Source of the DNA: Selenomonas sp. AB3002
Lineage (GTDB): Bacteria; Bacillota; Negativicutes; Selenomonadales; Selenomonadaceae
Direction of reading: 5' to 3'
Assembly (NCBI RefSeq): GCF_000702545.1
Contig: NZ_JNIO01000007.1
Location: forward strand, 62,001 to 126,000
Length of the DNA: 64,000 bases
The translations under genes and the position numbers were made by a program. The notes beneath the pieces are model-generated. The model saw only the letters and a list, made by a program, of their open reading frames with translations, made no database searches and was not told where the DNA came from. Shown here one piece after another: positions 16,716-39,336 of the stretch; the first letter of the stretch is position 1; the number at the start of each line of letters is the position of its first letter.

Positions 16716-19700
16716 TTAATCACTCCAGCTCTTCTTGGAGTAATCATAGTGCCAGGTGGAACCATCACCCAGCTGGAACGTACTGACGGAACTGCTGCTC
16801 ATGCCGTTGAGATTCAACGTGCTGACATTATCACCATCCTTCAGCGTGATTGTCATGGCACCAGACTTGCTGGTATCGATGCCAACCTTGCCAGCCATAA
16901 CATCATCAATGGTGACATTGTAGAGTACAACCTTGTCATCACTGTAGCTGCTGGTAATGACATCACTTCCGTCACCAACGCCAAAGAAGAATGTGGTACT
17001 ACCGCCCGACGCGCCTTTGAGGGTATCATTGGACGCTCCTGCACCGCCCCATAGGCTGGTCTCGCCCTTACCGGCCATAAGGCTCTCATTGGCATCGGTG
17101 CCTGCAAGGATAAGGGTACCACTGTTGGCACTGGCATCCACGGTCTTGACACTTTCGTAATAGAAGTTATTGCCACCACCGTCCAGCCAGATCTCAGCAG
17201 TATCAACATCAGAACCCACTTTCAAGGTGTTATTCTTGCCGCCCATATAGGTAGCCACCTCTTCATCATAGGTCCAAGTGTTGGAAGTGCCAGACACACC
17301 AATTTTTACCTTAGTGGTACTGCTGCCATCAAAGGTAAACTTTACAGCGGTGTCCGTACTAGACTTGCCAAAATCCTTAAGAGTCAGCTTGTCGCCGGAG
17401 CCAATGAGATAGATGGTAGTATCTGTACCGTTATTCTTGATATGGCTGAAGCTTGAAAAATCAAGCCTGATCACATCATCGTCATCTGCACTGCCCCAGT
17501 CACCATTATCAATGGTATCCTTGCCGTCACCGGCCATGAAATAATAGGTTACATTGCTATCACTGCTCTTGTTGCCATAGAGTACATCAGCACTGCTGCC
17601 ACCACCCCACAACGTGGTATCGCCACTACCTGCTATCAGGGTTTCCTTTTCTGCAGCACTGCCCATAAGGATATTTGCACTGCTGCCGCCCTTGACGCTG
17701 GCGAACTTGCCATAATAGTAAGCACCGCCAGTATTGTTCATAATACCCGTATTGCCCAGGTCAACCACCAGGTCATCATCGAACTTGCCAAAGTCCACCA
17801 TCGCAGAAGAACCACTTGAGTAGTAGATATTTGCCATATCTTCCGTATCCGCGACAGAAGCCGTGCCCTTAACATAATCCACAGCGTAGGTAACGCCAGT
17901 ATTATCACGGACATTCACCATCACATCACTGGTAACGGCAGCCCCCCCCGTAATGGAAGCGAGCGTCAGGGTAGCACCGCCTACCTTGGCTACCAGATCT
18001 GTGTTGTTGCTTACACTCAGGTCAAGCGCACTAATATTGTTATCAAAGAGATAAACCACATCGCCTTCAAAGCTTGAAGTACGTGCCTCAAAGGCGAGGA
18101 CAGTATCCTTGCCGCCGGCACTGGCCAGGCCCACGTATTCGGTGGTGTTGAGGGCAGTCGCTGTAGCCCTGCCCTTCAGCACATCTTCAATATCAGTACC
18201 AGTAGCTGTAGCAGACAGGCTGGCATTAAGGAGAATGGCATCATTTCCGGCACCACCATAGGCAATATCTCCGGCACCTGCTACTATTTCATCACCCTTG
18301 CTGCCGCCAATCAAGGTATCTACCGCATTTTCATTGGCAGTACCAAGCAGCACGACTTTATCGGTAATGCTGGAAGCATCTATCAGGCTGCCGTTTTCAT
18401 TACCCCATCCGCCAATGGCTAGGTCATCCCCTGTGTCAATCCTGGCTGCATAAAAGCCATTGGTTTCACTCACCTTTACAACACCAGCACCACTGCCAAC
18501 AGAGATGGAGCCATCAGAACTATGAGAACCATAGGAAAGGGGCATATCTATCCTCAGCAAATCATTGTAAATATCAAGATTTGCCAAGGTCACGGTGCCA
18601 CCAGACATACTGGTGAAGTCCAAAGTATCCTTGCCTGTGCCAGCAGTGACAGTCATAGTACCTGAGAAGACAGAGCCAATGAACAACGAATCATTTCCCT
18701 CACCCAAATCTAACTGGTTGCCATCTCCCGCCATATTGATAGACACTATGTCATTGCCGTTGCCGCCATAAATAATATTGTCCTCAAATACTCCGGCTTC
18801 TTCTTCATCATCATAAATCACCAGGGAATCGTTGCCATCACCCAGGTTTATAGTGCTGTTTTTGACATCGCCGTCAAAGTGTATAGTATCATTCCCAGCA
18901 CCAGTGTTAATAGCAGACTTTATAACCTTCGTAGCGAAAACTGAATCCCTGCCAGCCCCAGTAGTAACTACGGCTTCATTGAAATCGGGGTTATGTTTTT
19001 TCGCTCCCTCATTAATAAGATTGTTGCCATCGCCCATATCGATGGTACCCGTGAGGGTTGCATCAGTCAGCAGAGTGTCATTGCCATCACCAAGCCTGAT
19101 AGCGACAGTTCCCTCCACATTACCCATGAGGTCCACATAATTGGCGGCAGTGCCGCTGCCTGTAACGACCAGGTCACCATTAACCGCACGCACAAATAAA
19201 CTATCAGCGCCTGCACCCAGGTCAACAGACAGATTGTCTCCTACATCTGTCAATATATCAATGTAGTCTTTGCCATCTCCGGCACTGATAGTGGTCTTGC
19301 CCACAGCACCATGTATGAAAACACTGTCATTGCCATCGCCCACATCGATATTCACGTCACTACCAGAAGTGAGGCTCACATCGACATAGTCATTGCCTGC
19401 ACCGGCGTTGACAGTAATTTCCTTATCAGCACTATTATGCAGGAAAACACTGTCATCACCATCACCCACATCGATGTTCGTGGGACCAGCCGAAGCAAGG
19501 CTCACATCAACATAGTCATTGCCTGCGCCAGTTACAATGTTGATATTGCCTTGAGCACTGTGCATGAAGACACTGTCGTTACCTTTGCCCATGTTGATGT
19601 TGGTATAACCAGTTGAGGTAGCATAGTTATAATCTACCCTGTCAGCACCATCACCAAGTTCAAGGTTAGTTACATTCTTGGCACCAAAGATAGTCCACCC

Positions 19701-19895
19701 CTCTGTGCCGCTATAGTTTATATCTGTCACATAACCATTAGCGGCATCTGGAGACAAATCCAATGTGTTACCACTTTGCCCCGCTACCAAAACTTTTCCC
19801 GAGTCCGTAGAGGAATAAAAGGTATCATTCGTGGTGGAATATCCGATGACACTGGCGGTCGAACCGGAAAACACACCTAAATTCAAAGTCGCCAT
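16716..19895 (-). CDS. RTX-like Asp/Gly-repeat protein, probable secreted protein
   Basis: 1,059 residues from the ATG at 19895 (AAGGGGG at 19904-19910), starting MATLNLGVFSGST. Residues about 90-450 carry at least a dozen nonapeptide-like motifs (GDGNDSVFI, GAGNDYVDV, GDGDDSVFL, GAGNDTIHF) spaced about 21 residues apart, with DSVFxH and DYVDV types alternating in the first half. Further degenerate GxGxD segments follow. The C-terminus ends GDGSTWHYDYSKKSWSD. No signal peptide and no cysteine in the repeat region. The repeats resemble calcium-binding RTX beta-rolls but are spaced like a solenoid. Type I secretion is inferred; no transporter for it lies in the window. A TATAAT at 19924-19929 may be its -10 box. 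Confidence 0.82.
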   Translation of the reverse strand: MATLNLGVFSGSTASVIGYSTTNDTFYSSTDSGKVLVAGQSGNTLDLSPDAANGYVTDINYSGTEGWTIFGAKNVTNLELGDGADRVDYNYATSTGYTNINMGKGNDSVFMHSAQGNINIVTGAGNDYVDVSLASAGPTNIDVGDGDDSVFLHNSADKEITVNAGAGNDYVDVSLTSGSDVNIDVGDGNDSVFIHGAVGKTTISAGDGKDYIDILTDVGDNLSVDLGAGADSLFVRAVNGDLVVTGSGTAANYVDLMGNVEGTVAIRLGDGNDTLLTDATLTGTIDMGDGNNLINEGAKKHNPDFNEAVVTTGAGRDSVFATKVIKSAINTGAGNDTIHFDGDVKNSTINLGDGNDSLVIYDDEEEAGVFEDNIIYGGNGNDIVSINMAGDGNQLDLGEGNDSLFIGSVFSGTMTVTAGTGKDTLDFTSMSGGTVTLANLDIYNDLLRIDMPLSYGSHSSDGSISVGSGAGVVKVSETNGFYAARIDTGDDLAIGGWGNENGSLIDASSITDKVVLLGTANENAVDTLIGGSKGDEIVAGAGDIAYGGAGNDAILLNASLSATATGTDIEDVLKGRATATALNTTEYVGLASAGGKDTVLAFEARTSSFEGDVVYLFDNNISALDLSVSNNTDLVAKVGGATLTLASITGGAAVTSDVMVNVRDNTGVTYAVDYVKGTASVADTEDMANIYYSSGSSAMVDFGKFDDDLVVDLGNTGIMNNTGGAYYYGKFASVKGGSSANILMGSAAEKETLIAGSGDTTLWGGGSSADVLYGNKSSDSNVTYYFMAGDGKDTIDNGDWGSADDDDVIRLDFSSFSHIKNNGTDTTIYLIGSGDKLTLKDFGKSSTDTAVKFTFDGSSTTKVKIGVSGTSNTWTYDEEVATYMGGKNNTLKVGSDVDTAEIWLDGGGNNFYYESVKTVDASANSGTLILAGTDANESLMAGKGETSLWGGAGASNDTLKGASGGSTTFFFGVGDGSDVITSSYSDDKVVLYNVTIDDVMAGKVGIDTSKSGAMTITLKDGDNVSTLNLNGMSSSSVSTFQLGDGSTWHYDYSKKSWSD

Positions 19896-19982
19896 GAAAA
19901 ATTCCCCCTTATACATAAAAAATATTATATGCCTATATTTCAACTAAAGGGAATTTTCTCCTTCCTGCTTTAAAGATTTAAT

Positions 19983-31703: not shown

Positions 31704-31871
31704 CTATTCACTTTCCCACTGAGCAAGGCTTCGTTCCTTAGAATCAAAGCTCACACCAATCTTGAAAAGCTTTCTCTCATCTGCAGCAAAGGGCGCAGCA
31801 TAACCTTTTTCCTCTATCTGGTCCAGGGCTTCTTTGGCTGATTTATCTACCTTGAACTCGAAGATATAAAC
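31704..31871 (-). pseudogene. C-terminal fragment of an AAA-ATPase/PD-(D/E)XK (DUF1703-type) protein
   Basis: Only the last ~55 residues remain (VYIFEFKVDKSAKEALDQIE to SLAQWESE), typical of the nuclease-like C-terminus of this family (EFK is the catalytic E-x-K). The frame upstream runs into an unrelated 89-bp segment shared with 42160-42248, with no start. It is a remnant left by recombination. Confidence 0.65.
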
Positions 31872-31951
31872 TACCAAACGGGAGACAGCAGGAAGAGGCT
31901 GCAAAAGTACGAATGAAAACAAATTGCCAGCAAAAGATGCAGGCCCGCCCT
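31863..31951 (+). repeat. 89-bp direct repeat, copy 1
   Basis: Identical over 89 bp to 42160-42248. It encodes the last 17 or so codons of a DNA/RNA non-specific endonuclease (INYQTGDSRKRLQKYE, stop) and the start of its terminator hairpin. Here it abuts the DUF1703-type fragment. Confidence 0.85.
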
Positions 31952-32042
31952 GAAGCGGACCTGCATCTTTTATTTTCTCAGAGCATACGGCAGGAAATGA
32001 ACTGGAGCAGGGAGAAAAGTAAGGCAAAGGGGTGAATTGCCT

Positions 32043-33008
32043 ATGAAATCAGCAGAAACGAACGCCCCCATTCCGGCAGAACAAAATCTCTCCCTGCGGG
32101 AAATCTCCCTGAAGGGATGTTCCTGCCTGGGAAAGGGGCAGAACAGCACGGTTTACCAGCTTGATGAAGAACGCATCTTAAAGCTATACAAGCCTGCCCC
32201 CCATGCCCGCGACGCCATGGTACAGGAGCAGCGCAATGCTCAGGCAGCCTGCGCCCGGGGCGTGCCTACGCCCAAAGTATTTGAAGCAGTGCAGGCAGAT
32301 GGCTGCTTGGGCCTGATATTTGAACTGGTGCAGGGAACCAGCCTGCGGGAAGCTATCGCCAAAGAACCTGAGCGCTTGACTCAGCTGGTTGCCCAAGGGG
32401 CCCAGCTGCTGCGCAGGCTCCACCGCCTGCCTGTGTCCCCCGGCACCTTCCCGGCTATGAGCGAAACATATCATGAGAGGGCAGATGACCTGGCAGACCT
32501 GCTTTCAGCAGCCGAGATTGGACTCCTGCACAGGATGATTGACTCCATTCCCGAGGGCAAGTCCTTTATCCACGGTGACTTCCACCGGGGCAATCTCATC
32601 CTGCGGGAAAAGCAGCTCATGCTCATCGATGTGGCAGATGTGAGCCTGGGGCATCCCCTTTACGATGTGCTGGGCACCTATATGCTGGGCATGCACCTGG
32701 TGAAAAACTATCCTGCCGCCCTGGCTGAGAAAATGGTGGGGTGGAAAAAGGAAATCATCAGCAAGGCCTGGGATATCTTCAAGAGAACTTACTTCCAGAC
32801 CGAAGACCCTTCAGAGCTGGCGGAAATCGAAGCCTTGATGGAGGCCTACTGTCCCCTCAGATGGCTGACCTTCCTGAAACTTGCCCCCATGTCTGAAGAA
32901 ATGCGCCGCCAGTCTGTTGAAGAGGCCCGGGAAAATTTCTTTCCCCATATCCCGGCGCACATAGAACGCTTCCGGTCCCGGCTGGAAGCCATGGGAAGGA
33001 CACTATGA
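32043..33008 (+). CDS. APH-like phosphotransferase, first gene of a five-gene operon
   Basis: 321 residues from the ATG at 32043 (AGGGGTG eight bases upstream; a TTG two codons earlier is too close to it). The kinase fold is clear: GKGQNSTVYQLDEERILKLY (nucleotide loop and Lys), FELVQG hinge, catalytic loop FIHGDFHRGNLIL and metal-binding LIDVADVSLGHP. This is the aminoglycoside/choline kinase-like superfamily. Its substrate cannot be read from sequence, but cotranscription with biosynthetic genes suggests a small molecule or sugar rather than a drug. Its stop overlaps the start of the exporter gene (ATGA). Confidence 0.82.
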   Translation: MKSAETNAPIPAEQNLSLREISLKGCSCLGKGQNSTVYQLDEERILKLYKPAPHARDAMVQEQRNAQAACARGVPTPKVFEAVQADGCLGLIFELVQGTSLREAIAKEPERLTQLVAQGAQLLRRLHRLPVSPGTFPAMSETYHERADDLADLLSAAEIGLLHRMIDSIPEGKSFIHGDFHRGNLILREKQLMLIDVADVSLGHPLYDVLGTYMLGMHLVKNYPAALAEKMVGWKKEIISKAWDIFKRTYFQTEDPSELAEIEALMEAYCPLRWLTFLKLAPMSEEMRRQSVEEARENFFPHIPAHIERFRSRLEAMGRTL

Positions 33009-34759
33009 ACAAAGACGCTTTCCTGCTGCGGGCAGCTTTCCGCAGCTTCATGAAGAAAATGGTGCTCAACAACCTCATGGCCTTTATGGGCTCCATTGTG
33101 AACGGCATTGTCATCAGCCGTTATCTGGGCCTCACGGCCATGGCGGCCTTCCAGCTGACCCTGCCCCTGGTCTTTGTCATCATGATCATCAGCCAGATTA
33201 TTTCCCTGGGGGTGCAAAACAACTGCGCCAAGAGCATCGGCGCAGGTCATCAGGACGAGGCCTCAGGCTTCTATTCCACTGCCATCGCCTGCTGCCTGCC
33301 CCTGGCGGCCCTTATGGGCCTTGCCATTTCCCACTATGCAGGCCCCCTGGCCCTGGTGCTGGGAGCCGACGAAGCAGGGGCATGGCAGGAGGCGGCGGAC
33401 TATCTGCGGGGCATTGCCCCGGGCCTTGCCCTGCTTGTCTTCCTGCCCATGCAGGTGGCGGTTTTCTTCCTGGAAGGGCTCTCCAGATACGCCCTGTGGG
33501 CCATTGCCGTGCAGACCATGCTCAATGTGATTGGCGCCCTTGTGAACGTCCTCTGGGCAGGGGGCGGCATGTTCGGCATGGGGTTGGTCATGTCCCTTTG
33601 CTACCTGGGCTCCTTCAGCGTCATGGCCGCAGGGGGACTCCGGGAGCGGGGCTGCATCAACTTTTCCCTGGGAGCGGCCAAGCTCAGACACCTGCTGCCT
33701 ATCCTCAGGATTGGCCTGCCCTCAGCAGCAGACAGGTTCTACAAGACGGCCCAGATGTATATCATCAACCTCATGCTGGTTTTCTCCGGCTCCGCCACGG
33801 CCATTGCCGCCTTTGCAGACCTCAACGCCCTGAACAACATCTTCAATCCCATCGTCAGCGGCGTGAGCGCTGCCGTCCTCACCATGGCAGGGGTACTGGC
33901 GGGAGAGAAGGACAGGGAATCACTCCACAGGCTCCTGCATCTGTCAGTGCGGGAAGCACTGCTGGTGGAAGGGCTCACGGCCCTGCTGGCCTTCCTGGCG
34001 TCCCCCCTGCTCATAGCTCTCTTTGTGAGCCCCGGGCAGGAGGGCTACGAAGAAGCTGTGACGGCCCTCAGAATTTTCATCCTGTACCTGCCCCTCTACG
34101 GCCTGAACAATCTCCTGCAGAAATACTATCTGGGCATCCAGTCCCTCAAGATGACCTACCTTACCTCTGCCCTGGACAACTTCCTCTACATCTGCCTGCT
34201 GGCGGTGGTCCTGGGCAGGGCCTTCGGCCCGCTGGGCATCTGGTGGTCCTTCCTGCTGGCAGAAATGCTCACCCTCCTGACCCTGCTCCTCATCATCGGC
34301 TGGCAGAGGAAGAAATGGCCTCCAGCCCTCTCTGACCTCATGTGCCTGCCCCCCTCCCTCACCGGGGACATTGCCGCCTGCAGCTGGTCGGCAGGCAGCA
34401 TGGAAGAAGTCCTCACCGCCTCAGAGAAAGCCCGCCAGTTTCTCCTCCAGCAGGGGGAGAGAGAGGAAAGAGCCACCCTCCTGGCCCTGGCTATCGAGGA
34501 AATAGGCGGCAACATCATCCGCTGGGGCTTCACAGAGGGAAAGAAGCACCGCATAGATATCCGGGCCGCCAAAGGTGAGCACTGGGTGCTGCGCATCCGT
34601 GACAACTGCCCTCCCTTCAATCCCAAAAACTGGCTGGCCCTGCACGCAGAGGACGACAAGACAGCCAATATCGGCATCCGCACCATTTGCGGCCTGGCCA
34701 GGGAAGTCCGCTACTCCCGCACCCTGGGCATGAACTATTTATTCATAGAACTGAACTGA
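33005..34759 (+). CDS. MATE-family exporter fused to an anti-sigma-factor-type ATPase domain
   Basis: 584 residues. Residues about 1-450 are a MATE/DinF-type carrier with twelve hydrophobic segments. Residues about 455-584 form a GHKL (HATPase_c_2, RsbW/SpoIIAB-like) domain: N-box LAIEEIGGNIIRWGF, G1-type LRIRDNCPPFNP and G2 NIGIRTI. RsbW-type domains bind ATP and phosphorylate or sequester regulatory partners; fused to a carrier, the domain could sense or regulate transport. No anti-anti-sigma gene is seen nearby. ATGA overlap with the kinase gene upstream. The fusion is read from one continuous frame. Confidence 0.85.
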   Translation: MNKDAFLLRAAFRSFMKKMVLNNLMAFMGSIVNGIVISRYLGLTAMAAFQLTLPLVFVIMIISQIISLGVQNNCAKSIGAGHQDEASGFYSTAIACCLPLAALMGLAISHYAGPLALVLGADEAGAWQEAADYLRGIAPGLALLVFLPMQVAVFFLEGLSRYALWAIAVQTMLNVIGALVNVLWAGGGMFGMGLVMSLCYLGSFSVMAAGGLRERGCINFSLGAAKLRHLLPILRIGLPSAADRFYKTAQMYIINLMLVFSGSATAIAAFADLNALNNIFNPIVSGVSAAVLTMAGVLAGEKDRESLHRLLHLSVREALLVEGLTALLAFLASPLLIALFVSPGQEGYEEAVTALRIFILYLPLYGLNNLLQKYYLGIQSLKMTYLTSALDNFLYICLLAVVLGRAFGPLGIWWSFLLAEMLTLLTLLLIIGWQRKKWPPALSDLMCLPPSLTGDIAACSWSAGSMEEVLTASEKARQFLLQQGEREERATLLALAIEEIGGNIIRWGFTEGKKHRIDIRAAKGEHWVLRIRDNCPPFNPKNWLALHAEDDKTANIGIRTICGLAREVRYSRTLGMNYLFIELN

Positions 34760-34777
34760 TCAAAGGAGTGTATTTAC

Positions 34778-35392
34778 ATGAATATGAAGAAAACCTTTGC
34801 CACCACAGCCGCCCTTCTCGCACTCTGTGCAGGCTCTGCCTGCTGGACGGGGCCTGCCCCCGCCCCCTGGGTTCCCGTCGCCCAGGCCGCCGAAGCTCCG
34901 GAATGGCAGGACGATATAGACAAAGCCGCCTGGGACGATGAGGAGGCTTTCAATATCTCCATCGGCAAGTCCATAGCAGACTCTGTTGCCCTTCTCCAAA
35001 AGGAAGGCTGGAAACGGGTACAGAACGAAGATACTGTCTTCTATATCAAGAAAAAAGTCGACTATTACCTGACCATCGCCCTCCATCCCGACAAAGGCGC
35101 CCCGAGCAAGGTAGGCAGCTACCGCATCAGAATCTACGCCAAGACACAGGAACTGGCCGATGAGATGTATATGCGGGCAGAAAAGAATTTCTCCTACAAC
35201 TTTGGCCGCCCCAATGTGAAGAAAGGAACTACCAATGGCACCTGGTTCCTCTCTGACACCTATGCCGTCACTGTGGAATACAATGAGTACGACGCCCGCA
35301 TGCCCATTGTGAGGGACTACTATCCCTATGAAGTGGTAATCAGGCGGGATGTAGGTGACTACAAGAAATTCTTCCAGGCCATCAAGAAATGA
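34778..35392 (+). CDS. Secreted protein of unknown function
   Basis: 204 residues. A signal peptide (residues 1-38, ending AQAAEA) is followed by a soluble alpha/beta domain with no cysteine and no motif I recognise. AAAGGAG lies ten bases before the ATG; a second ATG two codons on is an alternative. It is the third gene of the operon, 18 bp after the exporter, and its stop overlaps the next frame. Being exported with a MATE pump and biosynthetic enzymes, it may bind or process the product (inference). Confidence 0.75.
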   Translation: MNMKKTFATTAALLALCAGSACWTGPAPAPWVPVAQAAEAPEWQDDIDKAAWDDEEAFNISIGKSIADSVALLQKEGWKRVQNEDTVFYIKKKVDYYLTIALHPDKGAPSKVGSYRIRIYAKTQELADEMYMRAEKNFSYNFGRPNVKKGTTNGTWFLSDTYAVTVEYNEYDARMPIVRDYYPYEVVIRRDVGDYKKFFQAIKK

Positions 35393-35400
35393 GGGAAAAT

Positions 35401-36693
35401 ATGAAACTCCAACCCATAGGCGTATCCAACCGCCTTTTCTACTACATGTGGGGCGGGGAGCAGGCGGCCTTTGACATCTGCTTCCGCTTCGCCTTGCAGG
35501 AGGAGCTTGATGCGGAACTGCTCAAAGCCTCTGCCGCCCAGGCACTGACGAACTTCCCGGAGTTCGCCATCCGCCCGGTGCTCCACCAGGGCACCGTCTG
35601 GGCCATAGAAAATCATGCTCCCCTGCCCTTTGCCCCCGAGGGCGGAGCCCCTCTCCTGTACGGCACAGAAGAAACTGACGGCTATCCCTTTGTCTTCCGC
35701 ACAGAGGAGCGGGGCTTCTCCTTCTCCTACTTCCACGGGCTGGCAGACTTCCACGGCATCTGGGGCTTCCTGCGCACCCTGCTGTATCACTACGCCCGGG
35801 GCAGAGGGCTGCCGGTGGAGGCAGGAGAGGGCATGAGACTGGCGCCGGACTATCCCGCCGACGAACTTGAGCGGCTGGACCCTTACCGGAGGTTCCGGGA
35901 GGAAATAAGCCCGGAACCCTCTGCCGCCCCTGCCGCCTTTGAGATTCCGGAGAAGGGCTATCCCCCTGAGACAGATTACTGCACAGGCTATGAGCTGCGC
36001 TGCCCTCTGGGGGATTTCCTCTCCGCTGCCAAGGCTCATCAGACCTCCGTGTCGGCTTTCATCGCCCTGACCGCCGCCAGAGCTTTGTCCTCTGTCTATG
36101 AAGTGGGAGACAAGGACATTGCCATCATGCTTTCCGCAGGCATGCACCCATACTACCAGACCAGCACCGCCGTGAATTTTTCCGATGCCCTTGCCCTGCG
36201 CTATGACAAGACCCTGAGGGAACTGCCGCCGGACCAGCAGGGAGCAGCCCTCAAGGCCCAGCTGAAAGCACAGCTGAACAGGGAACACTTTGCTCCCCTC
36301 ATAGCAGGGAAGGCAGCTATGGTAGACGGCTTCACCAGCTCCGGCCTGGATATCTGCCAGTGGAACCATCGCTTTGCCACGGCGCCCAAAGAGCCTGCCG
36401 CCGTCACCTTCTCCCTCACCTATCCCGGCAGCCTTGACCCCGGCCCCGCCTTCAAGCCCCTGCTGCAGGAAGTCACCCGCCTGATCTGCATCAGGAGATT
36501 TGGTGATTTTGGCCTGGCTGCCTCCACCTGCGGCGACACCATGTATATCCGCTCCTGCCAGAGGTTCGACTCCCCAGCCATCCTCAAGGCCATGCAAAAG
36601 GAACTTGAGCAAGCAGGCCTAGAGGCGGACTTCAGCCAACTGCCGGATTACCGGGGCAATCAGATGGTTCCGGAGAAGCTGCTGCACATTTAA
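35401..36693 (+). CDS. Condensation/alcohol-acetyltransferase-like acyltransferase
   Basis: 430 residues from the ATG at 35401 (GAGGG five bases upstream); an ATG at 35389 overlaps the preceding stop and is an alternative. The fold of CoA-dependent acyltransferases/NRPS condensation domains is suggested by an early HxxxD motif in FSYFHGLADFHGIWGFL, a later SVSAFIALTAARAL segment, and a DFG-like region (RRFGDFGLAAS). Such enzymes transfer an acyl group to an amine or alcohol. It lies 18 bp from the GT2-GH3 gene, which could supply the activated acyl group. Substrates unknown. Confidence 0.7.
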   Translation: MKLQPIGVSNRLFYYMWGGEQAAFDICFRFALQEELDAELLKASAAQALTNFPEFAIRPVLHQGTVWAIENHAPLPFAPEGGAPLLYGTEETDGYPFVFRTEERGFSFSYFHGLADFHGIWGFLRTLLYHYARGRGLPVEAGEGMRLAPDYPADELERLDPYRRFREEISPEPSAAPAAFEIPEKGYPPETDYCTGYELRCPLGDFLSAAKAHQTSVSAFIALTAARALSSVYEVGDKDIAIMLSAGMHPYYQTSTAVNFSDALALRYDKTLRELPPDQQGAALKAQLKAQLNREHFAPLIAGKAAMVDGFTSSGLDICQWNHRFATAPKEPAAVTFSLTYPGSLDPGPAFKPLLQEVTRLICIRRFGDFGLAASTCGDTMYIRSCQRFDSPAILKAMQKELEQAGLEADFSQLPDYRGNQMVPEKLLHI

Positions 36694-36711
36694 AAAGTTA
36701 AGGAGAACACC

Positions 36712-39297
36712 ATGGCCAATTACCTTGTTTCCATCGTGACACCCTTTCATAACGTAGACCCCAAGCTGTTCCGCTACGCTTACGAATCACTGCAGAAGCA
36801 GACCCTGGACTTTTCCTGCATCCAGTGGATCGTGGTGCTGCACAATACCGAGAGCAGCCTCAAGGCCGCCGTACATGAAATGCTGGACGGCCATGAGAAT
36901 ATCATCATCACAGAACTGGACAATGACCTGCACACCCCCTCCAGCCCCCGGAATTTCGGCATGAAGCTGGCCACGGCTCCCTTTTTGGGCTTCTTGGATG
37001 CAGACGACGGCTACACGCCTGAATGTCTCCAGACAGCCCTCTTGCACCTGCAGAGAACCCAGTCAGACCTGGTGGTCTTCCGCCGGGAATACGAAATGGA
37101 AACCGAGGGGCTCATGCCTGCCACGGAAATCGTCCTCTGGGACCAGACCCAGGCGGAGATTGTCATGGACAGGGAGCAATGGGACGACAAGAAGATGTTC
37201 GGCGGCCTTTTCTGGGGCATGGTGACCTCGCGGCTCTATAAGCGGGATTTTTTGACCCGACACAATTTCACCTTTGACGAGACCGTGCCCTTCACCGAGG
37301 ATGTGCTCTTTCTCATCGAAGTTTACGGCAAGGCGGGCCGCGTCTGCTACCTGCCCCAGCTCATAGGCTACCACTACTTCATCAACAGCAAGTCCCTGGT
37401 GCAGAGCATGACAGAAAAAGACGGAGAGACCTTGGTGTCCTACGCGGCAGGCTTCAAGAAAATCTTCGACGCCGCCTACAACAACGGCATCTATATAGAC
37501 GAGCTCATGGCCCTCTTGCTCTCCACCTTCTCCATGGTCATGCTCAATTCCAAGCAGCTGACTCTCGTCCACCGCCGTGAAATCAAGGAAATCCTGGAGC
37601 CATACGTCCACGAGATACGCCTGCTGCCCGCCACCAAGCTGATTTCTGCCGAAGAGGCCCGGAAGTGCTACACCCTGCCCAGGGAAGTCATCCTGCACCC
37701 GGAGAACTTCGACCAGGGCGGTGCCATCAAGGAAATCATGGACGGCCAGGGCATCCTGCAGGAAATCCTCTCCCGGAACAAGGACACGGACTACGGGCGC
37801 CGCTACAACTTCGCCAGCCTCCGCAGCGCCAAAGGGTATCAGACCAGAGTGCCTGTGAGCAGCTATGACACCTACGGGCCCCTGGTGCGGCTCCAGACCC
37901 AGATTGGCGAGAGCGGTATCTTCGTCTCTGATGCCATCCCCTGCTACCTGCTCACCTCCGGCAATTCAGGCGCCCCGAAGCTCCTGCCCGCCACCCGTGA
38001 GCACCTGGCCCGCTATGAGGAGGAATTCGCCCAGCTCCTGCGGGGCAAGATAACCATCCTGCTGGGAGAGAGCCTGCCCCAGGAAAGGCGCTACAACGAC
38101 CAGGCCGCCCTGAACACCATTTTCGGCAGGCTCATCGAAGATTTCTGCTACCGCGACCAGCAGCGGCTGGGGGTCAGCCATGCAGGCTTCACCGCCCCCA
38201 GGGAACTGCTCTTCCCTCCCAAGGCCATGGACACCCTTTACCTGCGGCTGTACTTCGCCCTGAGCGAGCAGCGGGCAGAGCAGCTTTTCGCCCCCTTTGC
38301 CTGGGGCGTGCTGGAGGCCTTCTCCTTCCTGGAAAGCCACTGGCAGGAACTGGTCAAAGACCTGACCGAGGGCACCATTTCCAGTAACCTCGACCTGCCC
38401 AAAGACTACCGCCAGCAGCTGGAAAGGTGCCTCATCCCCGACCCGGAGCGGGCAGAGGCCCTCAGGGAGGTTTTCGCAGAGGGCTTCCACCGTCCCGTGG
38501 CCACCCTGATCTGGCCGAAGCTCAAAAAAATCATCGCCATCGGCACCGGCAGCCAGGCCATCTATCGTGATGCCCTCAGAAGATACATCGGCGACCTCCC
38601 CTGGGACAATGGTTTCTTCGCCTCTTCGGAGGCCCTGCTGGGCAAGAGCGTGCCGGGTACGGATGAATACGAGCTAGTGACGGGGAAGAATTTTTACGAG
38701 TTCCGCCCCTTCCCGGAAAAACCGGACAACCACGATCACCCGCTCCTGCTCAGCCAGGTGCAGGAGGGAAAGCAGTACGAGCTCATCCTCACCAACAGGG
38801 CGGGGCTCTACCGCTACGCCACCGAGGACATCCTCGAAGTCAGGAGCCTCACCGAAGGCCGCCTGCACTTTGCCTTCGCAGGCAGGAAATCCGAAGCCCT
38901 GCCCCTGCCCGGCGGACTTCTCTGGGAAAGGGATGTCTATGAAGCCATCAAAAAAGGCGCCAAAGCACTCTCCCTTGCACCCACAGATTTTTCCTATTTC
39001 CTGAACGAAGAAAACACCCTCACCCTCATGCTGGAGATCCCAGGAGCAAAAGCCCCCGCAGAAGCTCTGGCCGCCACTCTGGACGAGGCTCTCTGCGAGG
39101 AATGCCCCGCCTATGCCAAAGCCCGGCAGAATGGCCAGCCCGCCTGCCAGGCGCTCTACCTCTCCCCCGAAAGCCACCTGCTCTATCGGGACATCCAGCG
39201 CTTCAAGCACAAGACAGCCCCCGACCAGATCAAGCCCGCCCACTTCCTGGGCACCCGGGAAAAAATACGGTTCTTCATGGGGCAGGTAGAGAGATAA
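36712..39297 (+). CDS. GT2 glycosyltransferase fused to a GH3-type acyl-adenylate enzyme
   Basis: 861 residues in one frame. Residues 1-230 are a family-2 glycosyltransferase: SIVTPFHNVD, DxD-like LDADDG (96-98) and catalytic ED at 196-197. A helical linker leads at about 340 into a domain like plant and bacterial GH3 acyl-acid amido synthetases: ATP loop YLLTSGNSGAPKLLPAT (412-428), a downstream FFASSEALLG motif and YRYATEDILEV. GH3 enzymes adenylate carboxylic acids and join them to amino acids (established). AAGGAG precedes the ATG. It is the last gene of the operon, before a terminator. The combination suggests a glycosylated acyl-amide or similar conjugate (inference). Confidence 0.82.
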   Translation: MANYLVSIVTPFHNVDPKLFRYAYESLQKQTLDFSCIQWIVVLHNTESSLKAAVHEMLDGHENIIITELDNDLHTPSSPRNFGMKLATAPFLGFLDADDGYTPECLQTALLHLQRTQSDLVVFRREYEMETEGLMPATEIVLWDQTQAEIVMDREQWDDKKMFGGLFWGMVTSRLYKRDFLTRHNFTFDETVPFTEDVLFLIEVYGKAGRVCYLPQLIGYHYFINSKSLVQSMTEKDGETLVSYAAGFKKIFDAAYNNGIYIDELMALLLSTFSMVMLNSKQLTLVHRREIKEILEPYVHEIRLLPATKLISAEEARKCYTLPREVILHPENFDQGGAIKEIMDGQGILQEILSRNKDTDYGRRYNFASLRSAKGYQTRVPVSSYDTYGPLVRLQTQIGESGIFVSDAIPCYLLTSGNSGAPKLLPATREHLARYEEEFAQLLRGKITILLGESLPQERRYNDQAALNTIFGRLIEDFCYRDQQRLGVSHAGFTAPRELLFPPKAMDTLYLRLYFALSEQRAEQLFAPFAWGVLEAFSFLESHWQELVKDLTEGTISSNLDLPKDYRQQLERCLIPDPERAEALREVFAEGFHRPVATLIWPKLKKIIAIGTGSQAIYRDALRRYIGDLPWDNGFFASSEALLGKSVPGTDEYELVTGKNFYEFRPFPEKPDNHDHPLLLSQVQEGKQYELILTNRAGLYRYATEDILEVRSLTEGRLHFAFAGRKSEALPLPGGLLWERDVYEAIKKGAKALSLAPTDFSYFLNEENTLTLMLEIPGAKAPAEALAATLDEALCEECPAYAKARQNGQPACQALYLSPESHLLYRDIQRFKHKTAPDQIKPAHFLGTREKIRFFMGQVER

Positions 39298-39299
39298 AT

Positions 39300-39336
39300 A
39301 AAAGAGGCGCATTGATGCAGCGCCTCTTTCTTTTTT
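39300..39336 (+). terminator. Terminator of the 32-39 kb operon
   Basis: AAAGAGGCGC and GCGCCTCTTT flank a 9-base loop, followed by CTTTTTT. Confidence 0.9.

Follow-up and report, generated by a model that had tools for sequence, protein, structure and literature searches.

Partner switching by RsbW, RsbV and SpoIIE proteins is a means of controlling sigma factors. Genes of this kind are also found near a natural-product gene in Methanobrevibacter ruminantium M1 of the rumen, for which the accessible parts of the genome report place the non-ribosomal peptide synthetase (NRPS) gene mru0068 among genes for a MatE protein, an anti-sigma factor antagonist and two serine phosphatases, and describe a third, smaller cluster, mru0513-0516, in which an anti-sigma kinase and a phosphopantetheinyl transferase accompany an antagonist and a phosphatase (PMC2812497). 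A second point of comparison is OlsH, a planctomycete GH3-like, ATP-dependent N-acyl-ornithine (lyso-ornithine lipid) synthetase in which, according to the available sections of its description, S115 is essential (PMC12493201). The differentially expressed Selenomonas clusters named in the accessible text of a survey of rumen biosynthetic gene clusters are sactipeptides (PMC8241843). Here we analyse a window of 64,000 nucleotides of Selenomonas sp. AB3002 (contig NZ_JNIO01000007.1, positions 62,001 to 126,000), in which five adjoining genes, P0001 to P0005, encode a kinase, an exporter, a secreted protein, a condensation-like protein and a fusion of a family 2 glycosyltransferase (GT2) with a GH3 domain.

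The locus resembles each of these systems in part. The accessible text on M. ruminantium describes NRPS assembly lines with the regulators as separate genes (PMC2812497), whereas the window encodes a kinase-exporter fusion and a GT2-GH3 protein, and no NRPS. OlsH and P0005 have in common a GH3 domain, three ATP motifs and the serine that is essential in OlsH, but the domain description of OlsH, as far as the source is available, shows no GT2, which P0005 has (PMC12493201). With RsbW/RsbV/SpoIIE switching, the window locus and its relatives share an RsbW-type kinase domain, STAS domains in homologues and, in a gene run elsewhere in this genome (L223), a SpoIIE phosphatase; in this group, however, the kinase forms part of a MATE exporter, and STAS is joined either to an APH kinase or to a condensation-type enzyme. 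The best reading of the pathway type is one that brings together a MATE exporter with an RsbW-type kinase, a small-molecule kinase usually bearing an RsbV-type STAS domain, and condensation-type enzymes. We give an even chance to the proposal that the window operon encodes a pathway for a specialised metabolite, of this partner-switch/MATE type from rumen Selenomonadaceae, in which GT2-GH3 replaces a carrier-bound adenylation module.

The operon and its enzymes

The features of the locus are as follows.

32043-33008, + strand: P0001, predicted kinase; ATG start behind a GGGG-type ribosome site, alternative TTG at 32037
33005-34759, + strand: P0002, MATE exporter (N-terminal) with an RsbW-like HATPase_c_2 kinase domain (about 34403-34723)
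34778-35392, + strand: P0003, putative secreted protein, no family
35389-36693, + strand: P0004, free-standing protein with a modelled condensation/CoA-acyltransferase fold and HxxxD (H116, D120)
36712-39297, + strand: P0005, GT2 fused to a GH3 acyl-amido-synthetase-like domain
39301-39336, + strand: intrinsic terminator at the operon end, hairpin 39301-39329 with U-run
31704-32027, - strand: remnant (3' part) of an AAA-ATPase_like/PDDEXK_9 gene, immediately before P0001, whose 5' end is shortened

An earlier note on this DNA had described a five-gene operon with overlaps or gaps under 20 bp and a single terminator, and this description holds: the junctions are, in order, -4, +18, -4 and +18 nt, and the hairpin at the end has a folding energy of -16.9 kcal/mol (z -2.6; 4 of 200 shuffles equally good). 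A consensus promoter scan gave no promoter-like match between the genes or directly upstream of P0001, and two inside P0002; with 11 matches in all, where shuffled sequence gave 6.2 (sd 2.8), the scan carries little weight in either direction.

P0005 joins a Glycos_transf_2 domain (2e-13, about 36730-37140) to GH3 and GH3_M matches (8.7e-56 and 9.6e-15, about 37750-38886, plus a C-terminal part), and passes the GH3 profile PF03321 with 189.8 bits against a cut-off of 23.6. All four GH3 residues tested are present in the window copy, namely S416, the motif-2 glutamate, the motif-3 aspartate and K841, which we take to be the GH3 C-terminal lysine; the motifs read TSGNSGAPK, ASSE and YRYATED, with asparagine in motif 1 where most intact copies have threonine. 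Of 22 aligned copies, 14, that of the window among them, keep the motif-1 serine, the counterpart of OlsH S115, and eight have lost it (L048-L052, L073, L074 and L076); L042, L044 and L047 deviate in motif 3. The activation by adenylation put forward earlier is thus supported for the window copy, whose motifs are intact, but not as a general step. On a tree, the intact and degenerate states need three changes, with L044 scored as intact and L071 as degenerate. The ratio of non-synonymous to synonymous substitution rates (dN/dS) of the GH3 half is 0.12-0.15 between degenerate copies (L051, L052 and L071, pairwise), 0.13-0.29 in six intact pairs and 0.26 in one mixed pair. The GH3 of the three degenerate copies compared is under purifying selection and therefore seems to keep a non-adenylating role there. 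The GT2 half has a lower dN/dS in all 10 pairs (0.09-0.18), and its FLDxDD stretch occurs in 22 of 22 rows. All ten GH3 chains listed for the PDB are named as plant-hormone enzymes, so a best match to a plant auxin enzyme says little about the substrate of P0005.

P0004 matches no Pfam family up to an E-value of 1, and thus not the condensation family PF00668. Despite this, the earlier view of it as a condensation-like acyltransferase is supported by its AlphaFold model, built with 21 homologues (mean predicted local distance difference test score, pLDDT, 92.6). Foldseek matched the model to the SrfA-C condensation domain (5.4e-16) and also to coenzyme A (CoA) acyltransferases, and VIA gave Z-scores of 29.1 (AzeD, PDB 8s6l), 25.9 (PapA5, 1q9j) and 25.0 (RzmA starter condensation domain, 7c1l); P0004 shares their fold at 9-12% identity. 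Proteins of this class use HxxxD, and the corresponding H116 and D120 of P0004 are invariant in 21 of 21 rows. Modelled fold and motif together place P0004 in the NRPS condensation/CoA acyltransferase superfamily. A search of the named genome contigs with the P0004 pattern confirmed nothing.

P0003 has no Pfam family (best E 0.04, below the cut-off). A putative signal peptide, recognised by eye and not by a tool, suggests that it is secreted; its AlphaFold model has a pLDDT of 80.4, with residues 1-34 under 50, and the fold has no PDB match at E ≤0.001.

Partner-switch domains and NRPS clusters

P0001 matches Pfam APH (E 2.3e-24), with HGDFHxxN and IDxAD stretches in which H179, D181, N186 and D198 are invariant (alignment A5, 15 rows), and is by sequence an APH-type small-molecule kinase. 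It scores 120.1 bits with TIGR02172, under the NCBIfam cut-off of 228.2, and at most 35 bits with APH(3') models. Of 49 listed matches, 30 loci were examined, and at 23 of these the homologue begins with a STAS domain, some of the seven STAS-less ones being fragments or cut by contig ends; in all five fusion proteins tested, Pfam recovered both STAS and APH. All but one of the 23 STAS-APH proteins (22) have serine at the motif position that corresponds to the SpoIIAA phosphosite, the exception being L166 with glycine.

P0002 matches Pfam MatE (E 1.5e-21; 77.2 bits against a cut-off of 24.9), remaining below the stricter TIGR00797 cut-off (57.6 against 147.4), and HATPase_c_2 (E 1.6e-9; 38.3 bits against 27.4). 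The residues of the HATPase N and G1 boxes are kept, N503 and D533 being invariant and E498, E499 and G557 nearly so (alignment A4, 15 rows). MATE transporters are powered by ion gradients. The "ATPase" of the exporter had been taken for a transport ATPase, a claim that has to be given up: the domain belongs to the GHKL/RsbW-type regulatory kinases (HATPase_c_2), and a role as energy source for export is rejected on family grounds. Judged by its family and conserved residues, it is a probable RsbW-type switch kinase domain. We read the P0001/P0002 pair as an exporter that would carry the switch kinase and an enzyme that would carry the switch phosphoprotein.

Distant homologues of the kinase, the exporter and the condensation protein occur together in NRPS clusters of the same family. 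Three loci from three genomes (L193, L194 and L195) have the common order A-PCP-X, STAS-APH, an unknown protein of about 460 aa, MATE-HATPase and A-PCP-C, where A, PCP and C stand for adenylation, peptidyl carrier protein and condensation. A profile of the 21 P0004 rows matches X, the terminal domain of the three A-PCP-X proteins, in which Pfam finds AMP-binding and PP-binding only, as well as an 868-aa frame of L198 (109-152 bits). In the window genome we counted 12 condensation matches and several NRPS-like loci, among them a 4744-aa frame with five condensation matches followed by an edge-cut frame that matches the start of P0002. L223 (L223:7509-17105, G000:C8) holds dCache-HAMP-SpoIIE, STAS, a STAS-condensation fusion, A-PCP-C and MATE-HATPase in one run, and is a full switch set around an NRPS. 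The earlier statement that no classic NRPS is involved is true of the operon, P0001 to P0005 having no AMP-binding or PP-binding Pfam match, but NRPS clusters hold distant homologues of three of its proteins, and this genome has the NRPS-like loci described above.

A wider comparison covered 40 regions around distant MATE-HATPase genes, hand-picked at about one per genome and mostly excluding regions already read, and 20 hand-picked controls. NRPS or SpoIIE/STAS genes lie nearby in 20 of 40 regions against 3 of 20 controls (Fisher p 0.008), and NRPS genes alone in 9 of 40 against 0 of 20 (p 0.02). The tallies of 9, 12 (given below) and 20 of 40 were read by eye; the neighbourhood models were made from our own seed sequences, and those for APH and U459 matched nothing in either set. 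The test regions were the shorter (mean 14 kb against 17.7 kb) because of contig ends.

A protein of about 450-480 aa recurs in rumen NRPS clusters (L193:6205-7584, L194:7066-8454, L195:4755-6119 and L226:5068-6519), with no Pfam family in the two scanned (L193 and L226).

Distribution and co-localisation

Near full-length GT2-GH3 genes number 18 copies in 16 genomes, all of one family, among the 380 genomes of the class searched; one copy is cut by a contig end and one is frameshifted. Fragments occur in five more genomes, those of G206 and G219 being cut by contig ends and those of G170, G242 and G247 looking decayed. More distant fusions are present in metagenome-assembled genomes (MAGs) labelled Ruminococcus, Atopobiaceae and Clostridia, at 35, 38 and 29%, respectively; a further fusion, at 48%, comes from a MAG that bears the label Synergistaceae and is possibly misbinned. 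Among the 189 genomes of the family, homologues of P0004 and P0003 (P4 and P3; likewise P1, P2 and P5 below) were matched in 22 and 12 genomes, respectively, and, at E 1e-20, P2 in 65 and P1 in 34.

A conserved five-gene order, for which the earlier note proposed a search, is rejected: just 2 of the 23 GT2-GH3 loci, those of G286 and the window genome, have all five genes together, and their orders differ. Elsewhere there are shuffled subsets, the orders seen including P3-P1-P2-P4-P5, P3-P1-P2-P5, P1-P2-P4-P5, P3-P4-P5, P3-P5 and P5-P1-P2. Neither are the genes scattered in all relatives, as at least one partner lies within 8 kb at 14 of 23 loci. Close homologues co-localise within 8 kb far above a simple chance model (2.5 Mb genome, independent copies): P1-P2, P1-P5 and P3-P5 each in 8 of 9 cases, P2-P5 in 9 of 11, P4-P5 and P2-P4 in 7 of 11 and P1-P4 in 6 of 9, where chance gives at most 0.09 for each strong pair (0.08 for P1-P5). 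These counts keep fragments of close homologues and leave out P4 at ≤33% identity, P3 at ≤38% along with two remnants, P2 at ≤32% and P1 at ≤35%. In the window, in three relatives from the genus and in G218, a gene for a lipoprotein of the MetQ/NlpA family lies close to the locus, which suggests a single ancestral site that later underwent losses and rearrangement.

Proposed pathway and its alternatives

Based on these observations of gene order, families, folds, catalytic motifs and co-localisation, we propose a model in which we infer the reaction order, the substrates and all of the regulation. The GH3 half of P0005 would adenylate a carboxylic acid and couple it to an amine, and the GT2 half would attach a sugar. 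P0004 would bring in an acyl group from a thioester with CoA (or a carrier), P0001 would phosphorylate an intermediate or the product, P0002 would export the product and P0003 would act outside the membrane. The switch kinase of the exporter may gate either export or synthesis; in the usual case it would do so by phosphorylating the STAS domain that the partner kinase bears. Of the series of steps listed in the earlier note, the parts for transfer (a condensation fold), glycosylation, carboxylate activation, phosphorylation and export are all there, but neither a part for the ATPase in the energetics of export nor adenylation as a general step is supported.

Several observations weigh against this proposal. 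The P0001 of the window, like the copies of L049 and L050, lacks STAS, which leaves the proposed switch pair incomplete in cis; the nine STAS matches elsewhere in the window genome are at most candidate partners. GH3 is degenerate at loci that have the same partner genes (L048-L052 and L071), and with no carrier protein in the operon the thioester donors are guessed. For each of P1 to P4 there are several GT2-GH3 loci without it, and none of the four can thus be strictly necessary; the pairs P2-P3 (3 of 11, the weakest, with 0.05 expected), P3-P1 and P3-P4 (4 of 9 each) are weaker, and the co-localisation counts are not independent because the copies are related by descent. Around the distant MATE-HATPase genes, switch genes alone lie near 12 of 40 against 2 of 20 controls (p 0.08), and 20 of 40 regions have neither NRPS nor switch genes.

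Loss of STAS from the window copy may have a local explanation. The remnant at 31704-32027 matches PDDEXK_9 (E 4.9e-12) and shares 85% identity with a stretch of 52 residues close to the C-terminus of an intact relative. Since it ends there, a deletion upstream of P0001 is plausible, and the remnant is possibly linked to the loss. A search for a STAS remnant upstream of P0001 found none there: the only match was to the linker beside the kinase, apart from weak ones in other parts of the window. AAA-ATPase_like/PDDEXK_9-type genes also stand beside the locus in genus relatives (L039 and L040, the latter alone having been put to the Pfam test).

The rival that survives best, although we consider it rather unlikely, is envelope decoration, in which the GT2 half transfers a sugar, possibly a uronic acid, onto lipopolysaccharide or a polysaccharide, GH3 amidates a carboxyl group on it and MATE acts as a flippase. 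PRK10073 and TuaG transfer uronic acids, and PRK10073 is the best NCBIfam glycosyltransferase match (69 bits, TuaG being weaker), but this score is far under the cut-off of 423. In L043, L045 and L047 a GalU-type gene (over its cut-off in L043 and L047) and a diaminopropionate ammonia-lyase gene (over the NF006058 cut-off) precede GT2-GH3, and the stronger constraint on the GT2 half in all ten pairs also fits such a role. However, the operon has no polysaccharide genes, and the distant partner genes are located in NRPS clusters.

More improbable is an amino-lipid pathway, with an OlsH-like N-acyl amino acid made by GH3, a second acyl chain added by P0004, glycosylation by GT2 and flipping by MATE. 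PapA5, which P0004 resembles, is a lipid acyltransferase, and OlsH is the sole NCBIfam match of the GH3 half; but that match scores 55 against a cut-off of 620, failing the equivalog test, and the fold of P0004 is unlike that of OlsI, an alpha/beta-hydrolase. A resistance cassette, in which APH inactivates and MATE expels a foreign drug with the other genes as passengers, is very improbable: APH and MATE are classic resistance families, and P0001 and P0002 match them, but the TIGR02172 score of P0001 exceeds that of any APH(3') model and the genes co-occur with biosynthetic enzymes across genera.

Returning to the partner-switch/MATE pathway, we tentatively extend it to rumen Firmicutes at large, a generalisation that we hold to be doubtful: an RsbW-type kinase in the exporter and an RsbV-type STAS domain in the biosynthetic enzyme would form a SpoIIE-controlled phospho-switch that docks the enzyme at the exporter or releases it, coupling synthesis to export, with the window operon a carrier-free GT2-GH3 offshoot. 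In the open-access literature searched, mostly titles and the beginnings of abstracts, we found neither a GT2-GH3 operon nor a pairing of MATE-HATPase with a STAS-enzyme, and both the GT2-GH3 fusion as an activating enzyme and the exporter-fused switch kinase paired with STAS-fused enzymes appear to be new. If true, a natural-product enzyme and its exporter would themselves be direct targets of partner switching, which would offer a testable handle on cryptic rumen metabolite clusters, and a GH3 amide synthetase would be fused to a glycosyltransferase, with relatives that retain the GH3 half despite lost catalytic motifs.

The source genome is Selenomonas ruminantium-like and related to Selenomonas rumen MAGs; the nearest named matches of P0005 have 96, 90 and 88% identity, two of them labelled S. 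ruminantium. The GC content is 53-61% in the operon genes and 54% in the flanks, and as it is mixed in relatives we did not use it as evidence of transfer. A plasmid-borne origin was rejected, no plasmid record matching P0005 at E 1e-15. In G284 (L109:4630-12580) an iorA-iorB-paaK run is followed by P4, STAS-APH and MATE-HATPase; because the same run in the window genome (PaaK 93.7% identical) stands without P4-P1-P2, an arylacetyl substrate remains no more than a lead. Elsewhere in the window, a 1075-aa frame at 16716-19943 (- strand) has no Pfam match up to E 0.01, and a long repeat-rich frame spanning the left edge (L225:11655-16001, - strand) is, by its look, likely a surface protein.

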